Assembly (NCBI GenBank): GCA_020344415.1
Contig: CP070825.1
Span: 1,727,759-1,791,758, forward strand
DNA from: Candidatus Aminicenantota bacterium
GTDB lineage: Bacteria; Acidobacteriota; Aminicenantia; Aminicenantales; Aminicenantaceae
Reading direction: 5' to 3'
Length of the DNA stretch: 64,000 nucleotides
The translations under genes and the position numbers were made by a program. Below are positions 34,080-42,285 of the stretch, in pieces (position 1 is the stretch's first letter; every line of letters begins with the position of its first letter). The notes beneath the pieces were generated by a model. That model saw only the letters and a program-made list of their open reading frames with translations. It had not been told where the DNA came from and did no database searches.

Positions 34080-34601
34080 TTAAGACCTGATGCCAAGCAG
34101 ATCTCTCCAGCGGTCAATATGGCCGTATTCGTCAGTCTGGTCCTTTTCGATGATTTTCCGCGTTTCTTCGTCCCACTCTATATCCCGCAACAGCTCATCG
34201 TAATGGCTAACCGCTCTTCGTTCTACCCATATGCCAGTCTTAAGGATGGCTTTTTTGCCTATCAATCGTGAGAAGAAGCCAAAGGCAAAACCCACAATCC
34301 AATACGCCCATCTCAGCTTGCTGGGTTTGAAACCGTATTCAAAGAGCTTTACCTGGAAATCTTGCAGATGAGTCATCTCATTGCACATTGCTGCGATGAG
34401 ATAATGATTGATTTCATCCTCCCTTTTTGTGATCTGAAATTTGTAAATATTGGCTGCCATCGTCTCTAATGTATGTAAGGCATGCAATCCCTTTTTAATG
34501 CTTTTTAATCTTCGTGGGGGGATCCCCTCTCGCCGAAGCTTAAAATCCTCGGCTCGCAGTTCAGGGCGTATGATTGAAATGTCAAAATTTTCTTTATTCA
34601 T
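34080..34601 (-). CDS. COQ7-like (demethoxyubiquinone hydroxylase family) diiron protein
   Basis: A 173-residue ferritin-like four-helix protein with a full set of diiron ligands at the expected spacing: E46, E75xxH78, E127 and E158xxH161. COQ7/CLK-1 hydroxylates demethoxyubiquinone, which needs O2. Aerobic quinone synthesis is not otherwise visible here, so the substrate is uncertain; oxygen detoxification or a rubrerythrin-like role is equally possible. A hydrophobic stretch around 98-112 (WAYWIVGFAFGFF) could hold it at the membrane, as for COQ7. It follows the 34639 membrane gene on the same strand, separated by a palindrome. Confidence 0.8.
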   Translation of the reverse strand: MNKENFDISIIRPELRAEDFKLRREGIPPRRLKSIKKGLHALHTLETMAANIYKFQITKREDEINHYLIAAMCNEMTHLQDFQVKLFEYGFKPSKLRWAYWIVGFAFGFFSRLIGKKAILKTGIWVERRAVSHYDELLRDIEWDEETRKIIEKDQTDEYGHIDRWRDLLGIRS

Positions 34602-34638: not shown

Positions 34639-35385
34639 TCAAATCCAGCCAAGCTCACTGAACTGAGGAAATCCAGAATGGGATATTCCCCAGTAAGCAA
34701 AGAGTAACAGACTCATGAAGTAGCCGATAGAAAAGAATAGAAGCACCGGATTCTGAGCACCTTCCTTCTTTCTTCTCAAATAAAGATAGGAGGCAAGAAG
34801 AAAGCCTAAACCAGCAGTAAGAATGCTGAAAACAACTGTCTGCCCTTCAATCCCATCCACAGAAAAATTAAAGCCATAGAAAGCCGCTCCGATCGAAAGA
34901 AGAACGATGTTTGATATTGAAAGAGTCTTCAAAGGAAGCATGTAGGCTAAGATTATTAAGCTTATAGAAATCAAGAAAATTCCTGTATGCCAAATATAGT
35001 GGCTTATGATCTCATCGAAAAGATAATTAGCCTTATACAGTTCTGTTTCTTTCATGTTTTGAAGAAGCCTGGCAACGGAATTTGAGGAGAGATGAAGACC
35101 ATGGCCATCCACATAAAGCAGGGAAGCAAAACCTAACATTACGCTCGTCAAGGTTATTTGCTTCTTAGGTGAACGCGGCAGGGAATGTAAAATTTTCTTA
35201 ATCCGATGATATAGGAAATAAACGAGGGGAATAACAACAAAGGGTGTTAAAAAATCAAGGGTATCCCCCCAGGTCAGAGGCTTTCTAAAGAAGCTCTTGA
35301 GGAAAGCGGGCAAATCATGAAAAAGAGCAAAGATAACACCGTAGAGAAGCAGCAAAAAACACAAAGTATTTTTATCTTCTCTCAT
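34639..35385 (-). CDS. Polytopic membrane protein with conserved-looking histidine clusters
   Basis: A 248-residue protein with about seven hydrophobic segments. Not recognised. Two potentially functional clusters stand out: VDGHGLHLSSNS (around residue 95) and DEIISHYIWHTG (around 128), i.e. His/Asp/Ser residues near membrane boundaries; this is reminiscent of metal-dependent intramembrane hydrolases such as the CREST (ceramidase-like) group, but the motif order does not let me assign it. ATG at 35385 is favoured over GTG at 35394 because an AAAGAG lies about 8 nt upstream. It sits between the Omp85-like gene (20 bp gap) and the diiron gene, suggesting one unit. Confidence 0.7.
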   Translation of the reverse strand: MREDKNTLCFLLLLYGVIFALFHDLPAFLKSFFRKPLTWGDTLDFLTPFVVIPLVYFLYHRIKKILHSLPRSPKKQITLTSVMLGFASLLYVDGHGLHLSSNSVARLLQNMKETELYKANYLFDEIISHYIWHTGIFLISISLIILAYMLPLKTLSISNIVLLSIGAAFYGFNFSVDGIEGQTVVFSILTAGLGFLLASYLYLRRKKEGAQNPVLLFFSIGYFMSLLLFAYWGISHSGFPQFSELGWI

Positions 35386-35405
35386 GCTAATCACTCTTTG
35401 AATTC

Positions 35406-36512
35406 TTAGAAGATATGGTTAAAATCGAAATAAATCCCTGTCCCCTCCTCACTAAAACCCATATCAAACCTAACAACAAAGTTTTTAAGATAATACCTCA
35501 ACCCCCAGCCGAGATCAACAACTCCTTTATCGAGGCTAATATTTGACCAAGACGGCCATATGAGTCCCCCATCTATAAAAATATTTCCTCCCAGTTTTTT
35601 CCAGATGGGAAATCTGTACTCGGCGTTTATTAAGAATTTCCCCTTATCTATGAAACGATTCCGAGCATAACCTCTCATTGCAGTTATCTCCGAGCCACCG
35701 CCAAGAACGGGCATCTCGAAAATCGGAATTTCCTTCCCTGATATTTTCTTAACAAGGGCACGAAGGGCCAAGACGTCTTTTTGACCAAAAAGACGATTAT
35801 ATTTTCTGAAATCTAAGGTGAAACGGTAGTAGTTGGCATTCTTATTTCCCAAAATCTCTGAAGCCAGATCGTTTTGAAAAAGTAGACGAAAGCCTCTTCT
35901 CGGATGGATCTGGCTGTCTGAAGTATCAAAACGGATGATGAACGTGGCATATGGAGAAAAGCCCCCCCCCACTCCCCTTAATGTTTCTGTGTATGGCCTT
36001 CCCTCTTCAACATTAAAATAGTCTACTTCCTTTAATACATAATGTGCTTCTATTACAAAATGCGGGGTAAAACCTCTGCCGATCTTTATCTGAAGCTCTT
36101 TTCTTTCATATGTGAATATGGTCTCATTCTCTTTGCAAGAACCTACTCCAAATCCGTAAAAACTGTACTTCAAAAATTTATCGTACTCGGCTCTGAGATC
36201 AAAGGAGATGGGATATCTTTTTCCTTGGCGGATTTCAAAATCAGGAATAGAAAAAGTGAAAACATACCATCTTTCTCCCTTACTGGAATTAAATAAAATG
36301 AAATCGAAGGATTCCTTTCTGGAGAGATAGTTGATAAATTTTGCCTTCCCACCATAACCCACCCCGATGTCTGTGTCATACATGAGAATCGGGAATACAC
36401 TCAGAGATTTTTTTTTATCTTCATCTGAAAAAGCAATGGCTCGAATGGGAATCATAAAGAAGAAATGAAGGATCAATGTGATCAAGATGAGATATTTAAC
36501 CTTGCTAACCAT
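35406..36512 (-). CDS. Omp85/BamA-type outer-membrane beta-barrel without POTRA domains
   Basis: A 368-residue exported barrel (signal peptide about 1-28) matching the bacterial surface-antigen (D15/Omp85) C-terminal barrel: RRGFRLLFQ, the MRGYARNRF segment corresponding to the (V/I)RGY motif of the lid loop, KFLINAEYRFPIW, FIDGGLIW, GLRYYLKNFVVRFDMGF and an F at the C-terminus. No POTRA domain precedes the barrel, so it is not BamA or TamA but a short patatin-barrel or lipid-transport-like member. Its coding strand contains a run of nine G's (35962-35970 as C's). Good ribosome-binding site AAGGGGCAAGA. A Pho-box-like array lies upstream. Confidence 0.85.
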   Translation of the reverse strand: MVSKVKYLILITLILHFFFMIPIRAIAFSDEDKKKSLSVFPILMYDTDIGVGYGGKAKFINYLSRKESFDFILFNSSKGERWYVFTFSIPDFEIRQGKRYPISFDLRAEYDKFLKYSFYGFGVGSCKENETIFTYERKELQIKIGRGFTPHFVIEAHYVLKEVDYFNVEEGRPYTETLRGVGGGFSPYATFIIRFDTSDSQIHPRRGFRLLFQNDLASEILGNKNANYYRFTLDFRKYNRLFGQKDVLALRALVKKISGKEIPIFEMPVLGGGSEITAMRGYARNRFIDKGKFLINAEYRFPIWKKLGGNIFIDGGLIWPSWSNISLDKGVVDLGWGLRYYLKNFVVRFDMGFSEEGTGIYFDFNHIF

Positions 36513-36603
36513 TCTTGCCCCTTTTTATTTAAGAATAAATGAAAAACAAAAAAACATCAATTTTAACCTCTAGCCTCAATTTATGCTCTCCTGGGAAAAA
36601 AGT

Positions 36604-36642
36604 TGTCAAAGAGTTGTGAAATATTTGTTAAAAGTTCGTTAA
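36604..36642 (-). promoter_or_regulatory. Pho-box-like array of four 11-bp-spaced hexamers
   Basis: On the minus strand TTAACG, TTAACA, TTCACA and TTGACA begin exactly 11 bp apart (plus-strand windows 36637-36642, 36626-36631, 36615-36620, 36604-36609). This matches the PhoP/PhoB-type pattern of TT(A/T/C)ACA direct repeats. The last hexamer doubles as a -35 box, with CATAAA as a possible -10 18 bp on (36580-36585), reading into the Omp85-like gene at 36512. Confidence 0.6.
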
Positions 36643-36834: not shown

Positions 36835-36864
36835 TTGCCCTACTACACGGGAGAATATCTAAAA

Positions 36865-39210
36865 ATGAAGAAAAGAGTTTTAAAGATAATCATTTTCGCA
36901 ATCATTATCATAATCATTGTAACTGCACTTTGGATAACCTATCGACTCCGTTCCTCTTTGCCAAAAACAAAAGGAGAAATCTCTATCCTGGGATTATCAA
37001 ATGAGGTTGAAATCATCAGGGATAAGCTCGGGATTCCCCATATCGTTGCAGAGAATGAAGAAGATCTATTTTTTGCCTGTGGCTATGTCCACACCCAGGA
37101 CAGGCTATGGCAGATGGAATTGTCGAGACGGATAGGGGCTGGCACTCTATCTGAAATCTTCGGTGAAAAAACGTTAGAAACAGACACTCATATGAGGGCT
37201 TTAGGCCTGAGACAAGCTGCTGAGAAAGATTTCAAAAGCTTAACTCCAAAAATGAAAAAGCTTCTCGCCTCTTATTGTGCTGGAGTCAATTACTATCTGA
37301 AGAAAAAGAAAAACCTTCCTCCAGAATTTCTTATTTTAAGATACAAACCTCAGCCATGGAAAATCCTTGACTGTTTCTTAATCAAACAAAATATGGCTTT
37401 GACTCTGAGCTACACTATAAAATCAAAACTCCTAAGGATGGAACTATTCAAAAGATTCGGGAAAGACAAAGCTCAAGAAATTATTCACTCCTCTCCCGTG
37501 GGAGACGTGGTAATTCCTTCTTTTGACTTTGAAATGAAGCCTTTATTTCCCAGGGGAAATTATTCAGGCAGCAACAATTGGGTAGCTGATGGAACATTAA
37601 CCCAAACAGGAAAGCCTCTTTTAGCGAATGATCCTCATTTAAAGATAAATAGTCTCCCTTCTATCTGGTATGGAATCCATATGCGCTGTCCAGAAATCAA
37701 CGTGATCGGAGTCTCTCTTCCTGGGGTGCCAGGAGTGATTATTGGCCACAATGATTATATTGCTTGGGGTATAACTAATTCATATGTCGACATCCAGGAT
37801 TTATACTTAGAAAAATTGGATCCTGAACAAAAAAAATACTTTTTTAATGGGGATTGGAAAGACCTTAAAATCTACAAAGAAGAAATTGTGGTTAAGGGAG
37901 AAAATAATCCCAAAAAAATTGATGTGAAGTGGACTCATCGGGGTCCAATCTTAACTCCTTGGATTATTCAAAGCGAAAGGCCAATCTCTATGAGATGGGC
38001 TATTTACGAAGGAGGACAGGCTGCAGAAGCCTTCTATCTGATAGATAAAGCAAAAAACTGGTATGATTTTGTAAATGGAGTATCTCTATTTGATTCTCCA
38101 TCTCAGAATTTCGTTTATGCCGATATCGATGGAAACATCGGCTATTACCTGAATGGAAAGATCCCTATCAGGAATAACCATAAGGGACTCCTGCCTGTAC
38201 CTGGAGAAACAGATGAATACGATTGGAAAGGCTTTCTTAAGGAGGAGGAAAAGCCCTTTTCTTTCAATTCTCTCGAACACCTCGTTGTTACAGCTAACAA
38301 TAAAATCGTATCCGATGATTATCCTTACTTCCTTGGTGATGAGTATATAGCTCCATTTAGAGCACAGAGAATAAAAGAGTTACTCGCAAAGAGAAAGAAT
38401 CACTCAATAGATTCTTTCAAGGAAATTCAACTGGATATCCATTCTCTCCGGGCTCGGCTTCTTCTTCCTTTTATCAAGGAGCTCGAAAATTTATCAGCTA
38501 CAGCACAAAAAGCTCAGGATATTTTAAAAAATTGGGATGGAAATATGTCCGATGATAAAGAAGCTGTTCTCTTTCATATATTTATCCAAATGCTCGAAGA
38601 AAACACCTTTAAAGATGAACTCGGAGATAGCTTTCCTCAATTTCAAGAGGCTACAGACAACAAATGGGCTGGGATCTATAAAATCATAAATAATCCACAA
38701 TCATCCTGGTTTGATAATATTCATACACCTGAAACAGAATTAAGAAAAGACATTATAAATATGAGCCTTTCACAAGCTTATGAACGGCTTGAGGAAAAAT
38801 TCGGTTCTCCAAAAAAGTGGGAATGGTCAAAAATGCACGCAATCCATTTTCAGCATCCCTTGGGTCAGGTTTGGTTTTTAAAGTTTCTCAATCGGGGGCC
38901 CTACCCAATCAAAGGAACTAAAGATACAGTCAATGCTTCATTTTTTCTTTTTGACAATCCATTTCGAACAGAATACGGTGTATCCTACAGACAGATCATT
39001 GACTTGGATGACATGAAAAATTCAGTGTTTGTTCTCCCCACAGGTCAATCAGGCCATTTTCTAAGCCGTCATTATGACGACCAGATCAAGACCTGGCTTG
39101 AAGGCAGATATTATCCAATGTTGTTTGATATGGAAACTATAGAAAAAGAATCCGAAGGCAAATTGATATTAAAACCGATTAAAGAAAACCGGGATTCAGA
39201 AAATAGATAA
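36865..39210 (+). CDS. Penicillin-acylase family N-terminal-nucleophile hydrolase
   Basis: A 781-residue Ntn-hydrolase precursor with an N-terminal membrane anchor or signal (residues 7-25, very Ile-rich). The pattern is the penicillin G acylase/acyl-homoserine-lactone acylase one: RDKLGIPHIVAENEEDLFFACGYVHTQDRLWQMEL in the alpha chain (cited in parts), a spacer, then the autocleavage site YSGSNNWV with catalytic Ser236, and NDPHL, GVPGVIIGHND and WGITNSYVD after it. Such enzymes hydrolyse amide bonds of acylated compounds in the periplasm. The real substrate is unknown; beta-lactams are only one option. ATG 36865 is chosen over the in-frame 36835 start, which lies inside the -10 region. Convergent with the response regulator. 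Confidence 0.9.
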   Translation: MKKRVLKIIIFAIIIIIIVTALWITYRLRSSLPKTKGEISILGLSNEVEIIRDKLGIPHIVAENEEDLFFACGYVHTQDRLWQMELSRRIGAGTLSEIFGEKTLETDTHMRALGLRQAAEKDFKSLTPKMKKLLASYCAGVNYYLKKKKNLPPEFLILRYKPQPWKILDCFLIKQNMALTLSYTIKSKLLRMELFKRFGKDKAQEIIHSSPVGDVVIPSFDFEMKPLFPRGNYSGSNNWVADGTLTQTGKPLLANDPHLKINSLPSIWYGIHMRCPEINVIGVSLPGVPGVIIGHNDYIAWGITNSYVDIQDLYLEKLDPEQKKYFFNGDWKDLKIYKEEIVVKGENNPKKIDVKWTHRGPILTPWIIQSERPISMRWAIYEGGQAAEAFYLIDKAKNWYDFVNGVSLFDSPSQNFVYADIDGNIGYYLNGKIPIRNNHKGLLPVPGETDEYDWKGFLKEEEKPFSFNSLEHLVVTANNKIVSDDYPYFLGDEYIAPFRAQRIKELLAKRKNHSIDSFKEIQLDIHSLRARLLLPFIKELENLSATAQKAQDILKNWDGNMSDDKEAVLFHIFIQMLEENTFKDELGDSFPQFQEATDNKWAGIYKIINNPQSSWFDNIHTPETELRKDIINMSLSQAYERLEEKFGSPKKWEWSKMHAIHFQHPLGQVWFLKFLNRGPYPIKGTKDTVNASFFLFDNPFRTEYGVSYRQIIDLDDMKNSVFVLPTGQSGHFLSRHYDDQIKTWLEGRYYPMLFDMETIEKESEGKLILKPIKENRDSENR

Positions 39211-39221
39211 CTCCATTGATA

Positions 39222-39246
39222 GAAAAAGGGGGCGTTCCCTATTTTT
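39222..39246. repeat. Imperfect palindrome between convergent genes
   Basis: AAAAAGGGGGCGTTCCCTATTTTT-type sequence at 39222-39246, probably a worn copy of the GGGGACWGTCCCC palindrome; its position suggests a bidirectional terminator. Confidence 0.4.
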
Positions 39247-39922
39247 GAAACCTGTATCCTGACCAGGGAACTGTAATGAGATGAGAGGGTTTAGCTGGAT
39301 TATCCTCGATTTTCTGCCTTAAATTGTGGATAAACGTATCGATGGTCCGGGTTGTCGGGAATTTATCATACCCCCACACCTCGTTGAGAATCTTATCTCG
39401 GCTCACGACTTCTCCCTCATGGGATACCAGAAGATTGAGCAAGCCAAATTCTTTGGCGGTAAGATAGAGGTCCTTTTTTCCCTTAGAAGCGATCTGTTTT
39501 TTGAAGTTTATATAGACAGCTCCAAAAGAGTATTCTTCAAGCTCTGTTTTTTCTGGTCTTGAGCGGCGCAGGATCGCTTTTATCCTGGCAATAAGCTCCT
39601 TTGTTCCGAATGGCTTAGTTATATAATCATCTGCTCCCAGCTCAAGACCTAACACTTTATCTATCTCTTCTTTTCTCTGGCCTGTGAGCATGATAATCGG
39701 GATTACTACTCCTTTTGTCCTTAAGTTCCGGCAGATCTCCATCCCGTTTAAAGAAGGAAGCATCACATCAAGGACAATCAGATCAGTCTTTTCTCTGCAA
39801 GCAAGCTGGAATCCCTGCTCTCCATCTGTGGAAGAGATTACCTTGAAATTCTCTGCCTCAAGAGAAGAAGTTAAAGTCTTGAGCAGAGCTTCGTCATCTT
39901 CGACAATTAAAATTTTCTTCAT
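39239..39922 (-). CDS. OmpR/PhoB-family response regulator
   Basis: A 227-residue regulator: receiver domain with acidic pocket EDD (8-10), phosphorylation site D52 in VLDVMLPSLNG, the conserved Lys in ITKPFG, and a C-terminal winged-helix domain ending RTIDTFIHNLRQKIEDN and VPWSGYRFQK. Its start overlaps the stop of the kinase gene by ATGA, so the two form one two-component pair. OmpR/PhoB-type regulators bind direct repeats spaced 10-11 bp; such an array is at 36604-36642, so that site is a candidate target. Confidence 0.94.
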   Translation of the reverse strand: MKKILIVEDDEALLKTLTSSLEAENFKVISSTDGEQGFQLACREKTDLIVLDVMLPSLNGMEICRNLRTKGVVIPIIMLTGQRKEEIDKVLGLELGADDYITKPFGTKELIARIKAILRRSRPEKTELEEYSFGAVYINFKKQIASKGKKDLYLTAKEFGLLNLLVSHEGEVVSRDKILNEVWGYDKFPTTRTIDTFIHNLRQKIEDNPAKPSHLITVPWSGYRFQK

Positions 39923-42285
39923 GGCTTTGGAAAAACCAGGATAAAAGTACTCCCTTTATCTGGTTGGCTTTCAACCTTTATATCGCCCTTATGGACTGTC
40001 ATGATGTGTTTGATAATCTTCAATCCCAATCCGACCCCTTTTGTACTTAGCTGACTCGCGTCCGCACTCCTGTAAAAACCTTCGAAAATCCTCTTCTGTT
40101 CTTCACGGGGAATCCCTACGCCCTTATCTTCAACCTGGATCTCTACTTGTTTATCTTTCTCGATTAAGTGAATATCAATCTCCTTTTTATCTGAAGAGTA
40201 TTTTATTGCATTATCAATGAGGTTGTCCAATGCCTGTTTTACTGCATCACGGTCAATCTCCAGATATACAGGATGATCAGGGAAATGTATCTTGAGAACA
40301 AATCCCTCTGATTCTAATCTGTGATGGAAAAGTTTTGCAGCTTCTTCAATCAAGGGTTCGATCTCTGTCTTTTGATATTCATAAGATTTTACGTTTTGTT
40401 CGATCTTGGCAAAATCGAGGATGTTATGAAGAAGACGTGAAAGCCGGATCGTCTCACTGGCCATCAGATCAAGGAGCTCACCTCTTTTAGCCCTATCTTT
40501 CACTTTCTGCTCCTGAAGGATTTCTGTGATCCCTTGGATGGAACTCATCGGAGTCCGAAGCTCATGAGAGACAGTTGAGATGAATTCAGTTTTAAGGCGA
40601 CTGACCTCATCCAATTTTTCTTTTTCCGCCCTTTCAAAAATAACCTCTTCTTGAAGCGATATCCTTTCCAGGTTTAAAGCCAATTCTCCAGCCATTGTCC
40701 CTAAAAGCTCTAGATCATCTCGAGTAAACCTCTCTCCTGACATTTTCTTGCCCAACGTCAGGTATCCAGCCAAAGCTGTAGACCTGAAAGAAAGCGGCAG
40801 AATTATCTCCAGGTTTTTCTCTTTTAAGGCAGCTTCCTGAGAAAAATCAATGTTTTCTTCAGTCTTTACTGCTTTTTTTCTGGTTATGACTTTCTCAGAT
40901 GCGAGGCCATAAGAGACGAGAGAACCCAGGTCTTTTTCTCCATCTCGTGCGATCGAAAGCGTCAATCTGCCAGAGTCAATAAAGTAAATAAAAATTCCCA
41001 TCTTTTCCAGAGGGAGTGTCTTTTTTATTTTTTCCAGAAAAAAATCCACAAGATGGTCTCGACGGACGATCCTGTGTGCCCTGTCGTTAAAACTGAGTAT
41101 ACTTCTGCGGTAATCATAACTCTGCCGGAAAAAAGTCCTGTCTACAAATTCCTGAATTTTTTTTCTTGCCGGATGAAATACGACTGCAGCACCAAGTGCA
41201 CCAATCATAAAGATGAATGTTTCTTGGACAAAGAAAAGCTTTGAAAAGATATTATGGAGGACGCTTACGGAAAATAGATACAAACTGACTGTAAACACCG
41301 TCAGTATTGTATAGACCAGACTGCGGTTGATAACGAGTTCAATGTTCATCAATCTGAATCGAACAATAGAAAAAGCAAAGGCCAGCGGGATGAGGATAAA
41401 AAACACCTGTGAAAGCTCCTCTGAAATCAGAGGATTTAACCTCATAACCTGAGGCAGCTGGTATAAGAAAATAAAGGGTCCAAGCCCGATAAAGAGGCCA
41501 TAAAAGATCCATTTAATCTGAGATCGTTCTTCTTCAAGGATTGTTTTTCTGTAAATAATGATCAAGGACAAAATCGCCAGGAAAACAAACAAAATGAGAT
41601 AAAAGCGGAAGTAAAGGTAAAAGACATGATAAAGCCTGTGAATTTCAATAGAAGTTTTTATTCTGGATAGCAGAAACAGGGTCTCAAGCATTCCTGCAAA
41701 AATAAGGGCTGGAAAATAAATGGCGAACTTCTCAAGCCTATACCTTTTCCTTGAAAAATAAAGGGAGAAGTGCAAGAGCAATGCAGGAGCCAGAGGATAT
41801 AAGATATAGAACATAATGCCAGGGATGCAAGGAAGCCAACCCTCTCGCAGGTGACAAAAACCCGTATTAATCACAATGGATGAGGCAAATAACAGAGCTG
41901 CCCAATAAAAAATTCGAGCCCTTGCTTCATCTGGCTTCAGGAAAAGAACAGAAATTCCAATAACCATGATGAAAAGACCGATCACCAGATAGATCAATGG
42001 AAAGGGTGTTGAATAAAAGGGGATGAGAAAGATTTCTTTCTTTTCTATTTTGCCATCATCATTCTGGATTAACAAAATCGAGCGTTCGTCAATTGTCCTG
42101 TTGCTTAGAATGAATTCAACGTCTTTCTCGTGTTCTATTTTTATGTTGTCTATTTGACGCAGGTTCTGGGTATTTATTTCTGCGGGAAGACCGGTGCGGT
42201 TGAGAAGCAGGAAATATCCATAAACGCTTATTAGTATGATAAAAAAGCCTGTGCATAAAGAAAGGTAAAAGGAAAATTTCCTCAT
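39919..42285 (-). CDS. Multi-membrane-segment GAF histidine kinase
   Basis: A 788-residue sensor kinase. One N-terminal helix and a short extracytoplasmic region (about 30-90) are followed by seven to eight hydrophobic segments (about 95-385, ComP-like, ending FRLMNIELVINRSLVYTIL), then a GAF-like domain (about 405-540), a HisKA dimerisation helix with H574 in SHELRTP, and a HATPase domain with N box DNLIDNAIKYSS, G1 VEDKGVGIP and G2 GVGLGL. The ComP-like front suggests sensing of a membrane-embedded or lipophilic signal. It is transcribed divergently from the beta-lactamase-like gene and ahead of the regulator. Confidence 0.92.
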   Translation of the reverse strand: MRKFSFYLSLCTGFFIILISVYGYFLLLNRTGLPAEINTQNLRQIDNIKIEHEKDVEFILSNRTIDERSILLIQNDDGKIEKKEIFLIPFYSTPFPLIYLVIGLFIMVIGISVLFLKPDEARARIFYWAALLFASSIVINTGFCHLREGWLPCIPGIMFYILYPLAPALLLHFSLYFSRKRYRLEKFAIYFPALIFAGMLETLFLLSRIKTSIEIHRLYHVFYLYFRFYLILFVFLAILSLIIIYRKTILEEERSQIKWIFYGLFIGLGPFIFLYQLPQVMRLNPLISEELSQVFFILIPLAFAFSIVRFRLMNIELVINRSLVYTILTVFTVSLYLFSVSVLHNIFSKLFFVQETFIFMIGALGAAVVFHPARKKIQEFVDRTFFRQSYDYRRSILSFNDRAHRIVRRDHLVDFFLEKIKKTLPLEKMGIFIYFIDSGRLTLSIARDGEKDLGSLVSYGLASEKVITRKKAVKTEENIDFSQEAALKEKNLEIILPLSFRSTALAGYLTLGKKMSGERFTRDDLELLGTMAGELALNLERISLQEEVIFERAEKEKLDEVSRLKTEFISTVSHELRTPMSSIQGITEILQEQKVKDRAKRGELLDLMASETIRLSRLLHNILDFAKIEQNVKSYEYQKTEIEPLIEEAAKLFHHRLESEGFVLKIHFPDHPVYLEIDRDAVKQALDNLIDNAIKYSSDKKEIDIHLIEKDKQVEIQVEDKGVGIPREEQKRIFEGFYRSADASQLSTKGVGLGLKIIKHIMTVHKGDIKVESQPDKGSTFILVFPKP

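Follow-up and report, generated by a model that had tools for sequence, protein, structure and literature searches.

A conserved four-unit array beside an OmpR/PhoB-type two-component system in Aminicenantes: a probable operator of membrane-lipid and envelope operons

Introduction

Four regularly spaced hexamers upstream of an Omp85-superfamily barrel gene raise the question of which regulator recognises them, which genes they control and whether their resemblance to Pho boxes means that phosphate is the signal. They lie in a 64-kb stretch of DNA from a Candidatus Aminicenantota bacterium (C1:1727759-1791758, the assembly being one contig of 4.43 Mb; hereafter the window). A preliminary description had likened them to PhoP and PhoB sites, assigned the last hexamer the role of a -35 box, pointed to a regulator and kinase nearby and tied the barrel-membrane protein-diiron unit to phosphate or a related envelope signal. 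Overall, our analysis bears out a conserved OmpR/PhoB-type operator with the neighbouring regulator as its likely binder, but neither the phosphate tie nor the -35 role. We consider it very likely that the array serves as operator for the two-component system at 39239-42285, which appears to activate membrane-lipid and envelope operons.

The PhoP regulator of Bacillus subtilis uses TTAACA-like hexamers upstream of the -10 box. PHO boxes are 11-nt direct repeats in several bacteria, being described in Escherichia coli and showing comparable features in B. subtilis (PMC4415409). On direct repeats, regulators of the OmpR/PhoB family assemble head to tail as tandem multimers (PMC4832192).

Array and promoter architecture

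The four hexamers were found on the minus strand at the places first described, each exactly 11 bp from the next (Table 1), and they form an array, TTAACG-N5-TTAACA-N5-TTCACA-N5-TTGACA, running from 36642 to 36604 that is unique in the 64-kb window. The minus-strand sequence before the barrel gene reads TTAACG AACTT TTAACA AATAT TTCACA ACTCT TTGACA ACTTTTTTCCCAGGAGAGCA TAAATT. Compared with four TTNACA units, the array matched 19 of 20 informative positions, and the next independent best match in the window reached 15 of 20. With a matrix derived from 65 arrays of other genomes the site scored 68.5; the next non-overlapping match in the window scored -25, and the maximum of 30 first-order-shuffled windows was -14.9. 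Left-out members of the array set had a median score of 68.8, the weakest scoring 29.6, so that the window site can be regarded as a full member of the set.

Four units were present in 71 of the 84 arrays fetched, and a TAAATT-like -10 box began 20 bp after the last hexamer in 61 of these 71, the same distance that separates TTGACA from TAAATT in the window. The common layout is four 11-bp units, 20 bp and then TAAATT (consensus of the fetched arrays, CTTAACAAACTTTTAACAAACTTTTAACAACTTTTTGACAACTTT). The conserved 20-bp spacing falls outside the 16-18 bp that separate the -35 and -10 boxes of a canonical sigma-70 promoter, and a promoter scan at the window array returned no canonical promoter or sigma-70 pair; on both counts the assignment of TTGACA as an ordinary -35 box is unlikely and was rejected. 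The spacing instead argues for the fourth hexamer being a putative activator half-site within the -35 region. With the last unit 20 bp from the -10 box and no sigma-70 pair, array promoters would be expected to have weak basal activity and to depend on an activator, and the presence of four units suggests a tetramer or two dimers over about the -30 to -70 region.

Table 1. Features of the array, the surrounding genes and related arrays (positions of the first ten rows are those of the window)
Feature	Position	Strand	Remark
Half-site 1, TTAACG	36637..36642	-	11-bp period, upstream of barrel gene
Half-site 2, TTAACA	36626..36631	-	11-bp period
Half-site 3, TTCACA	36615..36620	-	11-bp period
Half-site 4, TTGACA	36604..36609	-	in -35 region, 20 bp from -10
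Predicted -10 box, TAAATT	36583-36578	-	position conserved across arrays
Omp85-superfamily barrel gene	35406..36512	-	first in the putatively controlled operon
251-aa membrane protein	34639..35394	-	predicted seven-helix bundle, conserved His/Asp/Glu
COQ7-family protein	34080..34601	-	diiron-type
OmpR/PhoB-type response regulator	39239..39922	-	probable array binder
Membrane histidine kinase (window)	39919..42285	-	paired with regulator
Genome array 1	the window		before barrel-membrane protein-diiron operon
Genome array 2	74926		precedes MMPL transporter and DUF3419/BtaA-like gene
Genome array 3	1511547		precedes alpha-oxoamine-synthase-type aminotransferase and UbiA; 149 bp after paralogous regulator gene
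Genome array 4	3280115		precedes DUF3108, two epimerase-family genes, CAAX protease-like and PAP2-family gene
pst-type arrays	L167:4593, L170:1182, L171:5787, L172:8035, L173:3770, L178:3997		Aminicenantes relatives
Small secreted proteins	L102:10707-11240, L106, L119 and others		examples

Distribution of the array

Genome-wide scans were carried out with patterns rather than with the matrix. In the genome of the window, a three-unit search allowing at most one mismatch returned 11 placements, and the stricter search with four units returned exactly four promoters (Table 1), with no match to the control in either case (a reversed pattern in the three-unit search). When up to three mismatches were allowed, two-unit matches did not outnumber those of the reversed control (33 vs 44), and the two-unit matches at 80565, 1325797, 2234975 and 1915536 were rejected as members. 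Near the third array, a run of 100 N (C1:1513622-1513721, in L013) joins a UbiA frame to a sigma-54 activator domain, and the resulting chimeric 507-aa reading frame probably arose artificially, from a gap in the assembly or from masking.

Exact three-unit arrays occurred in 39 of 142 genomes of the class, counts in fragmented genomes being lower bounds, in comparison to two matches of the reversed control pattern. The expectation that the array would recur at other members and be kept in relatives is borne out by three further promoters in the same genome and by these 39 genomes. The closest relatives of the regulator taken from a named collection bear the title 'Candidatus Aminicenantes', and regulator relatives from outside this group (Zixiibacteriota, Calditrichia, Acidobacteria) were accompanied by weak array scores only. 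A degenerate array in Candidatus Saccharicenans (L198:8821; TTGACAGACTTTTGACAGGATCCTGACGGCGAGATGACAACTCT), situated 137 bp after the regulator ortholog with a matrix score of 24.8, suggests that the operator predates the family.

The regulator-kinase pair

The OmpR/PhoB-type regulator and kinase noted earlier are indeed present, 2.6 kb upstream of the array. A receiver domain joined to a Trans_reg_C winged helix and accompanied by a HisKA kinase places the regulator in the OmpR/PhoB family, and the 11-bp-period direct-repeat half-sites in the promoters are as expected for an OmpR/PhoB-family regulon. The best-scoring NCBIfam models for the regulator were WalR/YycF, MtrA and RpaB, of which WalR and MtrA have roles at the envelope, but it remained below all curated cut-offs and the kinase fell well short of the one for WalK.

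Kinase orthologs were sought in the same 142 genomes with the first 400 residues of the window kinase as the query, and near-full-length matches (query start at or before residue 44, E below 1e-42), together with one fragmentary (G029) and one split match (G091), were taken as orthologs. Array and kinase occurred together in 31 genomes, the array alone in 8, the kinase alone in 6 and neither in 97 (Fisher p 5e-18), and the association held when stratified by genus (nine mixed genera; 14 observed vs 7.3 expected, p 1e-4), although shared ancestry is only partly removed from these p values. Additionally, the array starts 20-236 bp past the stop codon of the regulator ortholog in 12 genomes. The genome of the window also encodes a paralogous kinase-regulator pair (C1:1508334-1511398; L013:2335-5399), whose regulator is 81% and whose kinase is 62% identical to its counterpart in the window. 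This second pair immediately precedes an array of its own and the aminotransferase-UbiA operon.

Counting against this link are the 8 genomes with arrays but no detected kinase and the 6 with the reverse, three genomes with array and kinase in which no array stands beside the regulator gene (G007, G008, G093), and the separation of regulator and array in the window by a divergent gene. The latter, a penicillin-amidase family gene at 36835-39210 on the opposite strand, looks like an insertion, as the array directly follows the regulator gene in the 12 other loci. On the strength of co-occurrence and physical linkage, the array is probably bound by the pair at 39239-42285 or by its paralog.

Genes behind the arrays

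The first or second genes behind the arrays were surveyed as 86 proteins, with genes called mechanically as open reading frames. The most frequent families were UbiA (9), diacylglycerol-kinase-type lipid kinases (8) and radical SAM proteins (8), followed by short-chain dehydrogenase, epimerase and NAD_binding_4 families (about five each), Omp85 (4), aminotransferase I/II (3) and DUF3419 (2), with 5'-nucleotidases detected twice at E <= 1e-5 and represented by three cluster members. Two operons recurred. The first, found whole or in part, comprises an aminotransferase, UbiA, a lipid kinase, a ThiL-like AIRS protein and a dehydrogenase, and the second a dehydrogenase, a B12/radical SAM protein, an Omp85 barrel, a membrane protein and a COQ7-like diiron protein, the last three being the operon of the window.

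The best model for the aminotransferase was SerpalmtaseCFB at 412 of 640 bits, below the serine palmitoyltransferase equivalog cut-off that would mark a sphingolipid locus, and the 8-amino-7-oxononanoate synthase and glycine acetyltransferase models (387-390 bits) were both likewise below cut-off. A dehydrogenase reached 142 of 400 bits against KdsR (3-ketodihydrosphingosine reductase), with generic SDR models scoring higher. Judged from these families, the most natural reading would be a lipid pathway that begins with a sphingolipid-like step. Literature searches on Aminicenantes yielded nothing on sphingolipid and, on two-component systems and regulons, only an unrelated metagenome survey.

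The seven-helix protein of the window has invariant H98, H101, D127, E128 and H132 and may be a metal-dependent membrane enzyme. A Foldseek search with it gave no match at E <= 0.001, and VIA-align Z scores of up to 7.9 were no better than generic helical bundles give. The fold search showed no ceramidase-like (CREST) fold, an absence that does not count as evidence against one.

It is important to note that, for about half of the arrays, the genes that follow are non-lipid genes or have no known function, including small secreted proteins, 5'-nucleotidases and carbamoyltransferase-like proteins, so 'lipid regulon' may be too narrow a name. The small secreted proteins, which carry a glycine-rich stretch and a motif like GELITVKPNSLLLL and lack a Pfam match, occupy 11 operon positions behind arrays. 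The 5'-nucleotidase genes stand directly behind an array at three loci (L087:3753-5414, L093 and L094, of G006, G007 and G008).

Comparison with phosphate regulation and other systems

The proposed tie to phosphate was not supported at the loci examined. PstB was absent at E <= 1e-80 from the genome of the window and from array-rich relatives that include G003, G006, G008 and G030, and in the 21 array genomes that do have pstB, none of the copies listed was on a contig with a window-type array. The PhoU-like/Na-Pi transporter locus of the same genome, called from a PhoU family match and a neighbouring reading frame, carried no array either. The regulator reached 199 of the 296 bits of the PhoB equivalog cut-off and the kinase 201 of the 334 bits of that for PhoR. 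In three genomes a 5'-nucleotidase gene follows an array, the only phosphate-related exception found.

The pst operons of relatives in several cases have their own adjacent PhoB/PhoR-like pair (L167, L175, L178), which at several loci precedes an array (L167, L178). These regulators belong to the same lineage and family as the window regulator, and 11-bp TTAACA repeats stand before a porin-like gene and the pst genes at their loci. Identity among the pst-linked regulators is about 60-96%, whereas their identity to the window regulator is 38-45%. The arrays at pst promoters follow the style TTAACA-N5-TTAACA-N5-TTTATN-N5-TTAACA, differing in their third unit and A-rich spacers, and score at most 12.9 with the matrix in comparison to 29.6 for the weakest window-type member. 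This pst-type array is probably the real Pho box of the Aminicenantes lineage. As the TTAACA half-site is common to two regulators of the lineage, the half-site alone does not mean phosphate, and the contig positions of PstB, the array style and the regulator identities led us to reject pst as direct evidence for a phosphate reading.

Alternatively, the kinase may sense phosphate shortage, directly or via phospholipid state, and the regulon may exchange phospholipids for phosphorus-free lipids. The half-sites are Pho-box-like, pst operons of relatives likewise have 11-bp TTAACA arrays, and other bacteria are known to remodel their lipids when phosphorus is deficient (PMC4796936). Phosphorus-saving remodelling is still a live explanation because DUF3419/BtaA-like, PAP2-like and, in three genomes, 5'-nucleotidase genes are among the targets, which together with the serine-palmitoyltransferase-like gene would fit phosphorus-free lipids or scavenging. 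We nevertheless judge it unlikely, as the window-type array is absent from the pst loci examined and from the one Na-Pi/PhoU locus checked, the true pst regulator belongs to a different pair, and the genome of the window has neither pst nor a close match to that regulator. Binding of the array by the pst-type PhoB of the lineage, instead of by the neighbouring regulator, would explain the similar TTAACA repeats at pst promoters but is highly improbable, given that the best match to the pst regulator in the genome of the window is 44% identical (vs about 60-96% among pst-linked regulators), that array-rich genomes (G003, G006, G030) are without PstB and that it is the other pair which shows both co-occurrence and physical linkage with the arrays. 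A chance run of T-rich hexamers with TTGACA as an ordinary -35 box, for which the AT-rich region might speak, was rejected as having a negligible probability on the window match, the matrix score (68.5 vs a shuffle maximum of -14.9), conservation across genera and the absence of a canonical sigma-70 pair.

The window system resembles B. subtilis PhoP and E. coli PhoB in having an OmpR/PhoB-family regulator and 11-nt direct-repeat units, but differs in falling below the PhoB and PhoR model cut-offs, in the pst link not being found at the loci examined, in its arrays of four units with 20 bp to TAAATT and in its recurrent lipid and envelope targets. The closest functional parallel, by analogy, is PhoP of Mycobacterium tuberculosis, an OmpR/PhoB regulator that recognises 7-bp motifs with a 4-bp spacer (an 11-bp period) as a tandem dimer extendable to a trimer or tetramer (PMC4832192) and controls genes of complex lipid synthesis (PMC3413638). 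Its half-site (TCACAGC) and lipid genes are different.

Proposed mechanism and significance

Returning to the array as the operator of the neighbouring two-component system, we propose that the phosphorylated regulator would bind head to tail on the four 11-bp half-sites (consensus TTAACAAACTT) and, as these occupy the -35 region, would recruit RNA polymerase to the TAAATT box 20 bp further on. Bound in this position it would act as an activator rather than a repressor, switching on the barrel, seven-helix membrane protein and diiron operon. The same regulator and, in this genome, its 81%-identical paralog may control a limited set of membrane-lipid and envelope operons as a small regulon. The putative signal is an envelope or lipid state, and an envelope signal would be compatible with these targets. 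The broader proposal of an undescribed Aminicenantes two-component regulon, with a rigid operator-promoter and with coordinated control of an uncharacterised membrane-lipid pathway, an outer-membrane Omp85-type barrel, a seven-helix protein and a diiron enzyme, is tentative, and we place it slightly short of an even chance.

In summary, the array system is set apart from the true phosphate regulon of the lineage, and arrays of TTAACA with an 11-bp period should not be named 'Pho boxes' from sequence alone. The operator is so regular that it can be used as a genome-wide label. With it, otherwise unconnected operons of a little-studied and mostly uncultured lineage come together as a single candidate regulon, and the seven-helix protein, the diiron protein and the barrel acquire a common setting, the biogenesis of lipids or of the envelope. 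If the proposal is true, a map of the regulon would identify both the steps that are missing for a new lipid and its transporters.
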